Below are positions 739 through 8,897 of a stretch of DNA of 38,734 nt, one piece after another (positions within the stretch are counted from its first letter, which is position 1; every line of letters starts with the position of its first letter). The position numbers and the translations under genes are program-made. The stretch is from contig VGWF01000029.1 in assembly GCA_016873715.1 (NCBI GenBank), positions 1 through 38,734 on the forward strand. Reading direction: 5' to 3'. The notes below the pieces were generated by a model, which worked only from the letters and a program-made list of their open reading frames with translations, was not told the origin of the DNA and ran no database searches. This DNA comes from Lentisphaerota bacterium (GTDB taxonomy: Bacteria; Verrucomicrobiota; Kiritimatiellia; PWTM01).

Positions 739-3201
739 GTGAACAGGCTGCATCGGTTCCGGGTTGATTCCATGGCGGCCGGCGTCGCCGCTTTTCTGGC
801 GGGCGGGGCCGTCGCGTCCGCCGCCGCGAATCCGCCACCCGCCGATCCGCTCGACACTCCCGCCACTCACGATCTTCCCGACCTCCGCGCGATGATCAAG
901 GCGCTCGGCGCGCCCGCCGGCGCGGCGCACCTCGCGCAGCTCGAAGCGCTGGCGACGCGCGGCGCGGAGATCGCGACCGCGGGCGGCGCGCTCGACGCAT
1001 GGGTCGGCGAGGTTGCGGCGCTGCGGCGGCGCGCGCTCGTCACGGAGAACCCGTCCGCCGGGTTCGACAAGCTCGTCTTCGTGACCCGGAAGACCTACGG
1101 CGCGAACCACTATTACACCGAGTTCATCAACAGCCCCTGGACGCCCGGCGGAAACCTGTGCGTGCTCGACCTCAAGGACGGCTCGGTCCGCGAGATCGTT
1201 CCGCAGTTGAAGGGCGGCGTGTTCGAGCGCTTCGACCTGTCGTTCGACGCGAGCCGCATCGTTTTCGCGTGGAAGGCGGGCGCGCAGGACGGCTACCGCA
1301 TCTACGAGGTGGGCGTCGACGGCAGCGGCCTCCGCCAGCTCACGTTCCCGCAGTCCGACGAGGCCGCGCTGGTCGCGCGGTACCGCGTCTTCGGCCACTA
1401 CCACCACGGCACCGACGACATGCAGCCGTGCTACCTCGCCGACGGCGGCATCGCGTTCATCTCGACCCGCTGCCAGTACGGCATCCTGTGCGACGTGCCG
1501 GACGACTTCACGACGACCGTGCTCTACCGAATGGACGGCGACGGCCGGAACCTGAAGCGCCTGAGCAACAGCTCCGTCAGCGAGGCCTCGCCCGTGCTGA
1601 TGCCCGACGGCCGGCTGCTTTACACGCGCTGGGAGTACGTCGACAAGGGCGCCGTCAGCGTGAAGTGCCTCTGGGCGATGCGGCCGGACGGCTCCGCATC
1701 CTCCGAGGTCTACGGCAACGACATCGACCTGCCGCCGACGCTGATCTACGGCCGGCCGATCCCCGGCACCGCCGACGGCTACGTCGTGCTCGGCACGCCG
1801 CATTGCCCGCAGAACGGCATGGGCACCGTGATCCGCCTCGACACGAGCCGCAACATCCGCACGCGCGAGCCGATGACCTACATGACGCCCGATGTCGACA
1901 TCCAGGACGAGGCCGGATTCGCGTTCCGCGGACCCGACGGCGCGTGGCGGAGCGATGGGGCGGGGCGCGGGCGGTTGTTCAAGGATCCGTTCCCGCTGTC
2001 GGCCCGTCTCTTCCTCGTCGCTCACAAGCCCGCCGGGCCGGTGTGGAAGGACCGCGAGGCCTACGGCCTCTACCTGCTCGACGAAACGGGCCGTGCCGCG
2101 CTGCTGCACCGTGCGGAGGGGATCTCGTGCTGGATGCCCGTCCCGTTACGGCCGCGGCCGGTGCCCCCGGTTCTGGAATCGCCCGTCGACGCCGCGCTGG
2201 CCGCCTCGAACCGCGCGGTGTGCGTCGTGGCGGACGTCTACCAGGGCCTCGGCGGTGTCGAACGCGGGACGGTGAAGCACCTGCGCATCCTCGAGCAGGT
2301 CCCGCGGCCGTGGTCGGCACGGCGGCGGTGGGACGGCGACGTCTACGACCAGCAGCACGCGACCATCTCGAAGGACACGCACCTCGGCCTCAAGGTCCAG
2401 CACGGCGTCGTGCCCGTCGAGGCCGACGGCTCGGCCAACTTCGTCGTCCCCGCCGGCGCCAACGTGTTCCTGCAGGCCCTCGACGCGAACTTCATGGCGG
2501 TGCAGACCGAGCGCACGTTCGTCAACTACATGCCCGGAGAGACGCGGAGCTGCGTCGGTTGCCACGAACTGCCCGGCGGCGTCGCCGCCGCGCCGTCGGC
2601 GTCGCTGCTCGCGATGCGCCGCGCGCCGTCCGTCCCCGGCCCGCAGCCCGGCGAGCGCGACGGACGCCGGCCGCTGGACTACGTGCTCGACGTGCAGCCG
2701 GTGTGGGACCGCCACTGCGTGAAGTGCCACGGCGGCGCGGAACCGCGCGGGACGCTCGACCTCCGCGGCACGCCCACGGCGATGTTCAACGCGTCCTACG
2801 AGTCGCTCGTGCCCGAGCGCCGCCGCAATCCGCTCCGCGACCGCGGCCTGCTCGGCCCGGTGATCGGCGAGAACCACCCCAAGACCGGCAACATCGACTA
2901 CCTCCCGCCGAAATCGCTCGGCTCCCACGCGAGCGTCCTCGTCGCCATGCTCGCCCGCGGCGCCGTGCGGCTGGCCGACCCGAAGCAGGAGGCCCGCGCC
3001 CGGAAGCTCGTCGAAACCCACCGCGACCTCCACCTCACGCCGGAGGAACTGCTCAAGGTGACGAACTGGGTCGACACCAACGCGCAGTTCTACGGCACCT
3101 ACTTCGGTCGCAAGAACCTCGCCCACCGTGCGCACCCCGCCTTCCGCCCCGTCCCGACCTTCGAGATGGCCGTCAGCCGGGAGGATCCGTTTGCGGAGTG
3201 A
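739..3201 (+). CDS. HzsA-like dihaem beta-propeller protein (hydrazine synthase alpha-related)
   Basis: An 820-residue exported protein. The GTG start gives a basic n-region (NRLHRFR) ahead of a hydrophobic core ending near ASAAA; ATG 772 is the alternative but would leave the signal without positive charge. A short helical region (about 35-95) is followed by a TolB/PD40-like beta-propeller (about 100-570) rich in repeats such as DLSFDASRIVFAW and YRMDGDGRNLKRLS. The C-terminal part carries two c-type haem sites, CVGCH (605-609) and CVKCH (660-664), the second in a context (CVKCHGGAEPRGTLDLRG) typical of planctomycete-type cytochromes. The arrangement matches proteins annotated as HzsA-related, homologous to the alpha subunit of anammox hydrazine synthase. 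Outside anammox bacteria the role is unknown, and hydrazine synthesis is not implied because the beta and gamma subunits are absent here. It stands alone, with 250-350 bp gaps on both sides. Confidence 0.75.
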   Translation: MNRLHRFRVDSMAAGVAAFLAGGAVASAAANPPPADPLDTPATHDLPDLRAMIKALGAPAGAAHLAQLEALATRGAEIATAGGALDAWVGEVAALRRRALVTENPSAGFDKLVFVTRKTYGANHYYTEFINSPWTPGGNLCVLDLKDGSVREIVPQLKGGVFERFDLSFDASRIVFAWKAGAQDGYRIYEVGVDGSGLRQLTFPQSDEAALVARYRVFGHYHHGTDDMQPCYLADGGIAFISTRCQYGILCDVPDDFTTTVLYRMDGDGRNLKRLSNSSVSEASPVLMPDGRLLYTRWEYVDKGAVSVKCLWAMRPDGSASSEVYGNDIDLPPTLIYGRPIPGTADGYVVLGTPHCPQNGMGTVIRLDTSRNIRTREPMTYMTPDVDIQDEAGFAFRGPDGAWRSDGAGRGRLFKDPFPLSARLFLVAHKPAGPVWKDREAYGLYLLDETGRAALLHRAEGISCWMPVPLRPRPVPPVLESPVDAALAASNRAVCVVADVYQGLGGVERGTVKHLRILEQVPRPWSARRRWDGDVYDQQHATISKDTHLGLKVQHGVVPVEADGSANFVVPAGANVFLQALDANFMAVQTERTFVNYMPGETRSCVGCHELPGGVAAAPSASLLAMRRAPSVPGPQPGERDGRRPLDYVLDVQPVWDRHCVKCHGGAEPRGTLDLRGTPTAMFNASYESLVPERRRNPLRDRGLLGPVIGENHPKTGNIDYLPPKSLGSHASVLVAMLARGAVRLADPKQEARARKLVETHRDLHLTPEELLKVTNWVDTNAQFYGTYFGRKNLAHRAHPAFRPVPTFEMAVSREDPFAE

Positions 3202-3550
3202 TCGAGTGAGCCTGCTTCATCAGGGCGGATCAGATGGAGCAGGGGGGGAGAGTGTGGCCGAGACGCCGGGCCGTCAGGCAGGCTGCGGCGTGCCGCGTGG
3301 CCTCCAAGGATTGGAACTTCGCGGGCGGGGACGGTCCAACGGTTGGACGGACGGGCTCACGGCCGCTCGCCCCTCCAACGCCCGACGATCGGGCGCGAGT
3401 TCCGGCCGGTCTTCGTGGAAGCGGCGACCTGGCCGCTTGCTTCGGGGATCCGCCGGGCTCGGCGGAGGCGCCGGTTGTTGGACGTCGGTCGATCGGGCAT
3501 GATGGCGCGGGCGCGGCGGGGATGACCGCGCGCCGCGCGGGGAGGCGTTC
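3202..3550. repeat. Intergenic region with three hairpins
   Basis: This 349-bp gap holds short open frames but none with protein-like composition. It contains a TCCAA-GGA-TTGGA hairpin (3303-3315), a GTCCAAC-G-GTTGGAC hairpin (3334-3348) and a CGCCCGA-CGA-TCGGGCG hairpin (3379-3395). The first two share a TCCAA/TTGGA core with the hairpins in the leader repeats near 30.73-30.81 kb and 33.83-33.88 kb, which suggests a dispersed repeat family. The promoter of the GH88 gene probably lies in the remainder, but I cannot point to convincing -35/-10 boxes. Confidence 0.5.
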
Positions 3551-5454: not shown

Positions 5455-7926
5455 ATGGACAACCGGCGGCGGATTCCTTTCAGGATCGGTTCCTTCGCGG
5501 CATCGGCGCTGCTGTTGGCGTCCACCGCCCCCGCGGGCGGCGCGGCCTCGGAATCGCTCTGGTTCGACCGCCCGGCCACGAAGTTCTTCGAGTCGCTCCC
5601 GCTCGGCAACGGCCGCCTCGGCGCGATGGTCTTCGGCGGCGTCGACGAGGAGCGGATCGTCCTCAACGAGAGCTCCATGTGGTCCGGCTCGCGCGAGGAG
5701 GCCGACCGCCCGGACGCGCACAAGGCCCTTCCCGAGATCCGCCGCCTGCTGATCGAGGGGAAGAACCCGGAGGCGGAGGAGCTGGTCAACTCAAACTTCA
5801 CCTGCGCGGCCAAGGGCTCCGGCCGCGGCCGCGGCGCGAACGTTCCCTTCGGCTGCTACCAGGTCCTCGGGAACCTCCGCCTGAAGTTCGCGGGCGCCGC
5901 CGCGACGGAGGACTACCGCCGCGAGCTCGATCTCGCCACGGCACGGGCGCGGGTGACGTACCGCCGCGACGGCGTCGCGTTCACGCGCGAGCACTTCGTC
6001 TCGGCGCCGGACGAGGTCTTCGCGAGCCGCCTCGCCGCCGACCGCCCGGGCGCGCTGTCGTTCGAGATCGCCCTCGACCGCCCCGAGCGCTTCGCCACCT
6101 CCGCCGCGTCGAACGAACTCGTCATGGCCGGCGCGCTGAACGACGGGCTCGGGGGAACCGGCGTGACGTACGTCGCGCGCCTACGGGTCGCGACGAAGGG
6201 GGGCGTGGTCCGGGCGGACGGCGCCCGCCTGCGCGTCGAGGGCGCCGACGAGGCCGTGCTGCTCGTCGCGGCCGCGACGGACTACCGCGGCTTCGCCGGC
6301 CGCCAGCTCCGCGATCCCGCCGCCGCCACGGCCGCCGATCTCGACCGCGCCGGCGCGAAGTCGTTCGAGGCGCTTGCGAAGGCCCACGAGGCGGATCACG
6401 CGCGGTGGTTCGGCCGGGTGTCGCTCCGGCTGGGGGACCGCGCCGATCCGCCGGAGGCCACCGACCGCCGCCTCGCCGCCTTCGCGAAGGGCGCCGCCGA
6501 TCCCGCGCTGGCCGCGCTCTATTTCAACTTCGGACGCTACCTGTTGATCGGCTCGTCGCGGCCCGGCGGACTGCCGGCGAACCTGCAGGGGATCTGGGCG
6601 GAGGAGGTGCAGACCCCGTGGAACGGCGACTGGCACCTCGACATCAACGTGCAGATGAACTACTGGCCCGCCCCGGTCTGCGGGCTCTCGGAGCTGCAGG
6701 AGCCGCTGCACCAGCTGATCGCGTCGCTCGTCGAACCCGGCACGAAGACCGCGAAGGCCTACTACAACGCCCGCGGCTGGGTCGCGCATGTCATCACGAA
6801 TCCCTGGGGCTTCACGGCGCCCGGCGAGCGCGCGTCGTGGGGCTCGACGACCGGCGGATCCGCGTGGCTGTGCCAGCATCTCTGGACCCACTACGCATAC
6901 ACGCTCGACCGGGAGTTCCTCGCGTGGGCCTATCCGGTCCTGAAGGGCTCGTCGCTGTTCTACGTCGACAACCTCGTCGAGGAGCCGAAGCGCGGCTGGC
7001 TCGTCACGGGGCCTTCGAACTCGCCGGAGAACCGCTTCAAGATGGCCGATGGACGCGCCGCGAATGTCTGTCTCGGCCCGACCATCGACATGCAGCAGCT
7101 CCGCGAGCTGTTCGGCAACACGGCGCGGGCGGCCGCGATCCTCGGCCTCGACGCGGACCTGCGCGGCGAGCTGCTCGCGAAGCGTGCGCGGCTCGCGCCG
7201 AACCAGATCGGTCCCGATGGACGGCTGCAGGAGTGGCTGGAGCCGTACGCCGAGGCCGAGCCGAAGCACCGTCACGTGTCCCATCTCTACGGCCTGCATC
7301 CGGGCAGCGAGATCACGTCCGACGGCACGCCGGACCTTGCGAAGGCGGTCCGCGCCTCGCTCGAGGGCCGCGGCGACGAGGGCACCGGCTGGTCGCTCGC
7401 GTGGAAGATCAACTTCTGGGCGCGGCTCGGCGACGGCGAGCGCGCGCACAAGCTGCTCGCGATGCTGCTGCGCCCCGCGCACACCGAGGGCAGGCGCGCC
7501 ATGGGTGGCGGCGGCTCGTCGGCGAACCTCTTCTGCTTCCACCCGCCGTTCCAGATCGACGGCAACTTCGGCGGCACCGCGGGGATCGCGGAGATGCTGG
7601 TGCAGAGCAGGGAGGACGAGGGACGAGGGGCGGGGGACGAGGGACGAGGGATACAGCAGGCTGTCGACCGGTCCACCCCTCGCCCCACGACCCTCGACCC
7701 TTTCCTCCTTCATCTTCTCCCCGCGCTACCCTCCGCCTGGCCCGAGGGCGAGGTCCAGGGACTGCGGGCGCGCGGGACGGTGAAGGTCGACATGGCGTGG
7801 TCGAAGGGAAGGCTCACGTCCGCGACGCTGACGGCGGCCAAGCCGGTCACGGTCCGCGTCCACCATTCCGGCCGCGAGCAGACGTTCGAGCTTGAACCCG
7901 GGAAGCCGGTGGCGATCCGGCCGTAG
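5455..7926 (+). CDS. GH95 family glycoside hydrolase (alpha-L-fucosidase / alpha-L-galactosidase type) with an in-frame insert
   Basis: An 823-residue secreted enzyme with an Arg-rich n-region (MDNRRRIPFR), hydrophobic core and signal cleavage near GGAAS. The N-terminal beta-sandwich starts with LWFDRPATKFFESLPLGNGR, the standard GH95 opening. The (alpha/alpha)6 barrel carries GDWHLDINVQMNYW (393-406), GPSNSPENRF with E525 (equivalent to the general acid E566 of Bifidobacterium AfcA) and QIDGNFGGTAGIAEM with D702 (equivalent to D766). The base-activating Asn pair of AfcA (NIN) appears here as D396-I-N398, a variant that may matter for specificity. Between LVQS (up to 718) and HLLPALPSAW (from about 751) lies a roughly 32-residue stretch of EDEGRG-type low complexity, where family members normally have a few residues (see the repeat entry). 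A GGGAGGG ribosome site lies about 5 bases upstream of the ATG. Likely substrate: terminal alpha-L-fucose or alpha-L-galactose on a branched glycan. Confidence 0.88.
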   Translation: MDNRRRIPFRIGSFAASALLLASTAPAGGAASESLWFDRPATKFFESLPLGNGRLGAMVFGGVDEERIVLNESSMWSGSREEADRPDAHKALPEIRRLLIEGKNPEAEELVNSNFTCAAKGSGRGRGANVPFGCYQVLGNLRLKFAGAAATEDYRRELDLATARARVTYRRDGVAFTREHFVSAPDEVFASRLAADRPGALSFEIALDRPERFATSAASNELVMAGALNDGLGGTGVTYVARLRVATKGGVVRADGARLRVEGADEAVLLVAAATDYRGFAGRQLRDPAAATAADLDRAGAKSFEALAKAHEADHARWFGRVSLRLGDRADPPEATDRRLAAFAKGAADPALAALYFNFGRYLLIGSSRPGGLPANLQGIWAEEVQTPWNGDWHLDINVQMNYWPAPVCGLSELQEPLHQLIASLVEPGTKTAKAYYNARGWVAHVITNPWGFTAPGERASWGSTTGGSAWLCQHLWTHYAYTLDREFLAWAYPVLKGSSLFYVDNLVEEPKRGWLVTGPSNSPENRFKMADGRAANVCLGPTIDMQQLRELFGNTARAAAILGLDADLRGELLAKRARLAPNQIGPDGRLQEWLEPYAEAEPKHRHVSHLYGLHPGSEITSDGTPDLAKAVRASLEGRGDEGTGWSLAWKINFWARLGDGERAHKLLAMLLRPAHTEGRRAMGGGGSSANLFCFHPPFQIDGNFGGTAGIAEMLVQSREDEGRGAGDEGRGIQQAVDRSTPRPTTLDPFLLHLLPALPSAWPEGEVQGLRARGTVKVDMAWSKGRLTSATLTAAKPVTVRVHHSGREQTFELEPGKPVAIRP
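7609..7704. repeat. Low-complexity repeat inserted in-frame in the GH95 gene
   Basis: About 96 bp made of GGACGAGGG-type units (7612-7650), a 26-base middle and a partly complementary CCCTCGCCCCACGACCCTCG arm (7677-7698). It forms an imperfect inverted repeat. The length is a multiple of three, and the translation (EDEGRGAGDEGRG, then STPRPTTLDP) has no counterpart in the GH95 fold at this point. Boundaries are approximate, taken from where GH95 similarity stops and resumes. Confidence 0.65.
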
Positions 7927-7998
7927 AAGCCCGGCGGAACGGCGAACCACACGAACGGCGCGAAAGAGGGCAGGGCAGACCTGCGCTCCTCGTGGGAT

Positions 7999-8897
7999 GG
8001 AGGGGCGAGCTACTGCGAGCCCGAACGCCGCGCTCACGACGTATCCTCTCCCCCCGGCCTCGCATAGCTCGGCCCTCCATCACGGCGGGTGGATGTCGGT
8101 TGTTGGGCATTTGGAGGGGCGAGCTACCGCGAGCCCGAACGCTGCGCTCACGACGCATCCTCTCCCTCGGCCTCGCATAGCTCGGCCCTCCATCATGGCG
8201 GGTGGATGTCGGTTGTTGGGCATTTGGAGGGGCGAGCTACTGCGAGCCCGAACGCCGCGTCCACGGCGCATCCTCGCCCCCGGCCTCGCATAGCTCGGCC
8301 CTCCATCACCGCGGGTGGATGGCGGGTGTTGGACTCTTGGAGGGGCGAGCTGCTGCGAGCCCGAACGCTGCGCTCGCGGCGCATCCTCGCCCCCGGCCTC
8401 GCATAGCTCGGCCCTCCATCATTGGATGTTGGACGTTGGGTGTTGGATGTTGGATGTTGGGTGTTGGTCGCTGGTTCTTGGAGGGGCGAGCTACTGCGAG
8501 CCCGAACGCCGCGCTCACGACGCGTCCTCTCCCCCGGCCTCGCATAGCTCGGCCCTCCATCATTGGATGTTGGACGTTAGGTGTTGGATGTTGGGTGTTG
8601 GTCGTTGGTTCTTGGAGGGGCGAGCTACTGCGAGCCCGAACGCTGCGCCCGCGACGCATCCTCTCCCCCGGCCTCGCATAGCTCGGCCCTCCATCACGGC
8701 GGGTGGATGACGGGTGTTGGACTCCTGGAGGGGCGAGCTACTGCGAGCCCGAACGCCGCGTCCACGGCACATCCTCCCCTCGGCCTCGCGTAGCTCGGCC
8801 CTCCATGAGCAAGGACTGCTGCGTCACCGTGGCCCGCTCGCGGCCTCGCATAGCTCGGCCCTCCATCACAGCCGGCTGGATGTCGGCGGTTGGATGC
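7999..8897. repeat. Tandem array of palindromic ~113-bp units
   Basis: The 980 bp between the convergent GH95 and sulfatase genes (7927-8906) hold no gene but a tandem array. Units begin at 7999, 8113, 8226, 8339, 8480, 8614 and 8727, giving periods of 114, 113, 113, 141, 134 and 113 bp; two decayed partial copies run to about 8897. Each unit starts GGAGGGGCGAGCTA and, about 57 bp later, carries GGCCTCGCATAGCTCGGCCC followed by TCC, nearly the reverse complement of the start. A stem of about 23 bp with a loop near 33 nt can therefore form (unit 1: arms 7999-8022 and 8056-8078). The rest of each unit is a variable tail of TTGGATG/GGTGTTGG sub-repeats, expanded in units 4 and 5. All frames are open because of the base composition; the predicted peptides merely repeat. 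Confidence 0.9.
8417..8613. repeat. TTGGATG / TTGGGTG micro-repeats within the array
   Basis: The spacer tails of units 4 and 5 (8421-8479 and 8562-8613) consist of 7-8-bp repeats related to TTGGATG, TTGGACG and TTGGGTG. Other units have a shorter tail with just one or two such words (GTGTTGGACTCTT or GTTGTTGGGCATTT). Copy-number change of this sub-repeat accounts for the 113 versus 134-141 bp period. Confidence 0.8.

Follow-up and report, generated by a model that had tools for sequence, protein, structure and literature searches.

A glycoside hydrolase gene from an uncultured Lentisphaerota bacterium carries, at one exposed turn of its product, an in-frame insert made of seven-nucleotide repeats, and the same turn has been entered by unrelated heptamer repeats in other genes of the family. 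The gene lies on contig VGWF01000029.1 (assembly GCA_016873715.1), of which the stretch of 38,734 nucleotides analysed here is called the window; it encodes an alpha-L-fucosidase-type enzyme of family GH95 (5455..7926, + strand, 823 aa) and its open reading frame (ORF) is open and intact. Among 174 GH95 genes (399 kb), 27 of the 28 arrays of period 7 fall in this one turn. The reading that we favour, with a probability of roughly 60%, is that a few exposed beta-hairpin turns have been invaded, recurrently and independently, by heptamers of the short tandemly repeated repetitive (STRR) type, the inserts being filtered for an open frame and in some cases copied between paralogues.

A heptamer insert at the turn between two GH95 domains

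The window protein contains the Pfam domains of GH95, namely PF14498, PF22124 (residues 303-715, E 1e-172) and PF21307 (752-806), all above cut-off, and its best match in the PDB by Foldseek is the GH95 structure 7kmq (template modelling score 0.87); fold and family are those of the GH95 enzymes of known structure (7kmq, 2rdy, 4ufc and 8zbv from Pontiella). According to the homologue alignment and an AlphaFold2 model, the insert (7609..7713, + strand) comprises 35 residues (719-753) standing in frame in place of a 6-residue beta-turn, a net gain of 29 aa or 87 nt, and it falls between the PF22124 and PF21307 matches. Insert-free relatives end their catalytic domain with QIDGN...EMLLQS-HTDEIT-LLPALP, and a homologue with 73% identity has the shortest form, QS-HTDEIT-LLPALP, where the window protein reads QS-REDEGRGAGDEGRGIQQAVDRSTPRPTTLDPFLLH-LLPALP. 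The insert is also missing from 7kmq and 2rdy, whose alignments stop at residues 718-720 of the window protein and restart at 752-753. On these alignments the insertion site is the turn at the end of the GH95 catalytic domain, between it and the C-terminal domain.

The DNA of the insert consists of two arms. The left arm (7614..7652, + strand), found by a period-7 scan and Tandem Repeats Finder, is a purine-rich array of the heptamer GGACGAG, 5.4 copies of which were reported by the latter program at 7614-7651, and the right arm (7674..7701, + strand), found by the same scan and an inverted-repeat search, is a degenerate array of CCCTCG-type heptamers in inverted orientation. Positions 7614-7633 and 7673-7692 are complementary at 80%, and the heptamers thus stand head to head. 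Folded as single-stranded DNA, the insert reaches -26.2 kcal/mol, whereas dinucleotide shuffles give -18.5 +/- 2.4 (z -3.2) and none of 200 equals the insert; an Rfam search returned only sub-threshold matches to miRNA-like hairpins. A first-pass annotation made from the letters alone had described an imperfect inverted repeat of about 32 residues at 7609-7704 that kept the frame and left the conserved residues on both sides intact; the insert, its inverted repeat, its frame and its flanks, which align with homologues on both sides, are all borne out, while its extent has been revised to 35 residues (net +29) ending at 7713.

The same annotation had placed the insert near the active-site end of the enzyme and proposed that a structural model be used to see whether the loop lies at the substrate cleft. 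In the AlphaFold2 model (mean predicted local distance difference test score, pLDDT, 89; predicted template modelling score 0.91), secondary structure assignment by DSSP gives a helix at 701-715 (codons 7555..7599, + strand), a strand at 716-720, a disordered stretch at 724-745 (pLDDT < 50) and a further strand at 750-754, and the insert is thus predicted to form a disordered loop at a beta-hairpin turn. Residue D702 of the QIDGN motif, invariant across the GH95 alignment and presumed to be catalytic by analogy with D766 of the Bifidobacterium enzyme AfcA, stands at the start of this helix. Since the insert lies beyond the opposite helix end, at a distance from D702 that may be estimated at roughly 20 A from the helix length, a position at the substrate cleft is unsupported, and the loop is probably located away from it.

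Recurrence at one turn and the reading frame

Eighteen GH95 genes were found to carry a heptamer insert at this turn: four in the genome of the window (the window gene and one each on contigs C13, C215 and C208), five in G013, four in G065, two in G074 and one each in G064, G075 and G106. These seven genomes, most of them draft assemblies in many contigs, belong to several families of the class and the carriers include many paralogues (5 of the 5 GH95 genes read in G013 and 4 of the 7 in G065), while no heptamer insert was found in 73 GH95 genes from named genomes. The repeat units, GGGACGA, GAGTGGC, AAACCTG, GGGTTCA, AATGATG, GTTTCGG and a CAGAATC-like unit present as one arm, differ between genomes, and the encoded loop peptides are wholly different. 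Homologues with a loop at the same place and unrelated DNA, which the first-pass annotation had named as evidence against an invading repeat, therefore do exist, but what encodes their loops is again a heptamer repeat, of another unit. The insert unit fits the host genome's own repeat words: CCTGAAACCTGAAAC, allowing at most one mismatch, has 73 matches in G013, where all five readable GH95 genes carry AAACCTG inserts, and a single match each in G064 and G065, whose inserts are built of other units.

A tree of 172 GH95 sequences (FastTree, with columns filled in fewer than half of the rows dropped, and with some long branches) requires 7 changes for the 7 rows with AAACCTG, 3 for the 3 with GGGACGA and 3 for the 3 with AATGATG. 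Carriers often have minimal-loop sisters, and in the pairs L103/L034 and L067b/L257 the left flanks are very similar although one member has the insert and the other does not. When carriers are grouped by unit, loop and clade, a grouping of our own, about 14 independent events are obtained. Copying between paralogues is supported in some cases, on comparison of the insert sequences, because the inserts of C13 and C215 are alike at all but 3 of about 75 positions in genes that occupy distant clades of the tree, and because in each tandem GH95 pair of G013 the two genes have the segment separating the arms in common. A single ancestral insertion in GH95, whose repeat unit later diversified through concerted evolution and which many lines lost, would accord with the variable length of this turn across GH95 and with the longer non-repeat loops found there in relatives of family f1, but it is highly improbable, as carriers are scattered among minimal-loop sisters, some at high identity, and many precise in-frame losses would be required.

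The reading frame is kept open by 17 of the 18 inserts, against a chance expectation of one third (p about 1e-7; if about 14 independent events are counted, 6e-6). In the remaining case, locus L100 (G075:C101, about 3177-3370), the insert at this GH95 turn is built of GTGRCGA heptamers and causes a frameshift that runs to a TGA, and the two results together point to purging of inserts that break the frame. Heptamer arrays pass through the same 21-nt cycle in every frame, so that by arithmetic an array free of stops in one frame is free of them in the other two; most inserts do have stops in their out-of-frame readings, in a set preselected for open loops for which the frame count is the unselected check. 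The retention of the frame, without stops, in 17 of 18 inserts also argues, indirectly, against a translational bypass element or an intron. Errors of assembly or sequencing in low-complexity DNA might be blamed, given that the genomes are mostly drafts and that the lone frame-breaking case could be such an error, but as an account of open frames in seven genomes, several families and many paralogues they are hardly credible.

Heptamer repeats in the genome and in other proteins

The genome of the window (5.1 Mb) probably belongs to the class Kiritimatiellia; in an rpoB tree it falls in Verrucomicrobiota, beside but outside the rows of Opitutia, Verrucomicrobiales and Lentisphaera. The GGACGAG-type word occurs at 62 places in it (E <= 0.001), so the absence of the repeat elsewhere, which the first-pass annotation had regarded as telling against its view, was not seen; most matches correspond to one arm (about 30-40 bp), and in a search of the 5.1 Mb the insert was not met a second time at full length. 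This dispersal, together with the open ORF and intact flanks, supports the earlier view of an in-frame, tolerated insert derived from a repeat. The further claim of interspersed palindromes held for the dispersed repeat word but not for its form, since copies are mostly direct heptamer arrays; a single jumping palindrome is for this reason unsupported. Genome-wide rates were taken from two 400-kb samples, the second partly picked for contigs with matches. Period 7 dominates their tandem repeats (38 and 45 arrays, against 0-15 for each other period from 5 to 13), periods 14 and 21 stand out along with it, and the units include GGGACGA, TTGGATG, TTCGATG, GTGTCGG and GAGCGGA. Neighbouring arrays share their orientation in 37 of 56 pairs, on which ground we abandoned the view of intergenic copies as palindromes like the insert, and those of opposite orientation show no order bias (10 vs 8). 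With its tandem 7-nt units and many copies dispersed over the genome, the repeat matches the STRR type.

STRR sequences are mainly intergenic and avoided in coding strands; of the arrays sampled here most are intergenic, yet copies that are translated in frame turn up repeatedly at the turns of GH95 and GH106. Many arrays that seemed to lie inside long ORFs proved to be intergenic ones over which the frame happens to continue, ahead of the probable start or at an end, and were excluded from the coding counts. In the loci sampled, period-7 arrays are dense in family f1 and sparser in f6 and f25, and none was seen in the small samples from f36, f32 and f12.

A similarly invaded site is found in GH106-type proteins (PF17132, PF22666), whose C-terminal galactose-binding-like domain has a turn flanked by SGxAxYRKTF and FLDLGxV. 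In four genomes, 26 of 39 of these GH106-like loops contain period-7 DNA, compared with 3% of stretches drawn at random from those loci; the query itself contained an insert, which biases the best 30 loci, and the lower-ranked set gave 7 of 14. Several units are found in these loops, some with two arms and others with the pyrimidine-rich arm only. A CCCTCGC heptamer array was also seen, once, in the beta4-beta5 turn of a PknB-like Ser/Thr kinase (L290:4154-7441, G000:C26), inside PF00069. No DNA motif shared by the GH95, GH106 and kinase turns was obvious by eye.

Several other repeats were observed alongside. A GH2 gene (L080:17647-17884, G000:C6) contains two heptamer arms that are complementary to each other and separated by 176 nt of coding sequence. 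In L294:14871-15095 (G000:C31) a 225-nt run of AACATCG/AACAGCC heptamers stands in frame in an apparent nucleotidyltransferase ORF, possibly as a C-terminal extension. The window itself holds, at 7998-8868, a tandem hairpin-like unit of 113-134 bp (GGAGGGGCGAGCT...CTCGCATAGCTCGGCCCTCCA), partly spaced by TTGGATG heptamer arrays, which has 92 matches in the genome, often with several units clustered together.

Origin of the inserts and significance

In the mechanism that we propose, a repeat-driven process would place the genome's own heptamers into the turn, its agent probably being slippage during replication, or ectopic recombination with arrays elsewhere in the genome, and not a dedicated transposase. 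Inserts with a broken frame or with stops would then be purged while the others persist, and short-tract conversion may sometimes copy an insert between paralogues, as one near-identical pair and two tandem pairs suggest. The insert would finally be translated as a disordered surface loop, as the structure model predicts, with the enzyme remaining active. The turns entered in this way would be the GH95 junction of catalytic and C-terminal domains, the turn of the GH106-type C-terminal domain and, once, the kinase beta4-beta5 turn.

Several points weigh against this proposal. The same GH95 genes accept other inserts of at least 12 aa, about 14 at 12 other sites and all non-heptameric, and despite these only one GH95 period-7 array lies outside the turn; insert-tolerant sites elsewhere thus hold at most one such array. 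This weakens the view that a tolerant turn explains everything, since tolerance alone cannot account for this exclusiveness. In 29 of 30 two-arm coding inserts (GH95 and GH106-like together) the purine-rich arm stands 5' on the coding strand, against the 10-to-8 ratio among opposite-orientation neighbours in the genome samples, a bias that slippage and filtering would not foresee. The repeat-moving step itself is inferred, not observed, and the tree that supports independent gains is approximate. As exclusiveness and fixed arm orientation resist an account by slippage and filtering, targeting or selection may act in addition to the filter.

If targeting were the main cause, a recombination or transposition system would recognize the DNA or the transcription of these codons and deliver heptamer arrays to them. 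About 14 independent insertions at one turn with none at the other insert-tolerant sites of the same genes, the fixed orientation of coding copies and three genes for Y1 transposases (PF01797) in the genome would suit such a system, which we nevertheless consider doubtful, because neither fixed ends nor a target duplication is seen, the arms are unequal in length or built of different heptamers, and the three turns have no obvious motif in common. These transposases, of the type associated with repetitive extragenic palindromic elements (RAYT), were rejected as carriers, their PF01797 loci (L072-L074) having no flanking heptamer hairpin and a single array, in L073. That these bacteria possess a mechanism bringing genome-specific arrays, in fixed orientation, into the codons of exposed hairpin turns of glycoside hydrolases, and hence a loop-diversifying system based on repeats, is decidedly unlikely. 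Selection at the peptide level could likewise set both site and orientation if the loops were kept for a benefit, such as polysaccharide binding or a longer hairpin, and the many carrier paralogues per genome and the purine-first order agree with this; it is nonetheless improbable for peptides that are wholly different between genomes, absent from close sisters, predicted to be disordered and, in one copy, truncating the protein.

Recurrent, filtered invasion by heptamers combines features of several known systems. The palindromic elements of Rickettsia (RPE) and Wolbachia (WPE) also occur both between genes and in frame within conserved proteins, where the window insert resembles them in being palindromic and lying between conserved flanks. 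RPE are elements of 105-146 bp with terminal inverted repeats, and the enzyme Gmk is active while bearing one (PMC2229807); WPE-like inserts are found in frame in addA, addB and priA (PMC4224334). Here, by contrast, the repeats are built of heptamers, with many unrelated units in use; direct arrays prevail between genes, and a single turn has been struck independently in many genes of one protein family. Membership of the RPE/WPE family, with copies of about 100-150 bp alike over their full length, was therefore rejected, as genome copies are mostly one arm and same-site inserts are unrelated.

In most of the genomes surveyed, the commonest long simple repeats are heptamers, and polymerase slippage has been proposed as their source (PMC4692102, PMC4679880). 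Dispersed 7-nt tandem repeats, often G-rich, are likewise found in Nostoc, Xanthomonas and others, the recurrent in-frame inserts in enzymes being the difference here. In the P6b region of the Nostoc tRNA-Leu(UAA) group I intron, degenerate heptanucleotide repeats pair as a hairpin, and two repeat classes occupy one permissive position (PMC3488679); that hairpin is an RNA intron loop that does not code for protein, whereas the present inserts lie in protein-coding DNA. The present case is not an RPE; it joins traits of RPE/WPE, STRR and P6b to a further one, the repeated and independent entry of a single turn of a protein. Our literature searches found no paper on heptamer repeats in Verrucomicrobia or palindromic repeats in Kiritimatiellota, and no published counterpart to an enzyme family that unrelated repeats have entered at a single structural position in about 14 independent events.

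The GH95 and GH106 families, multi-copy in these genomes, offer filled and empty sister genes ready for comparison, a natural experiment in which blind entry with filtering, DNA targeting and adaptation of protein repeat inserts can now be asked about directly. In this bacterium and its relatives, simple repeats reshape protein loops in a site-restricted manner.
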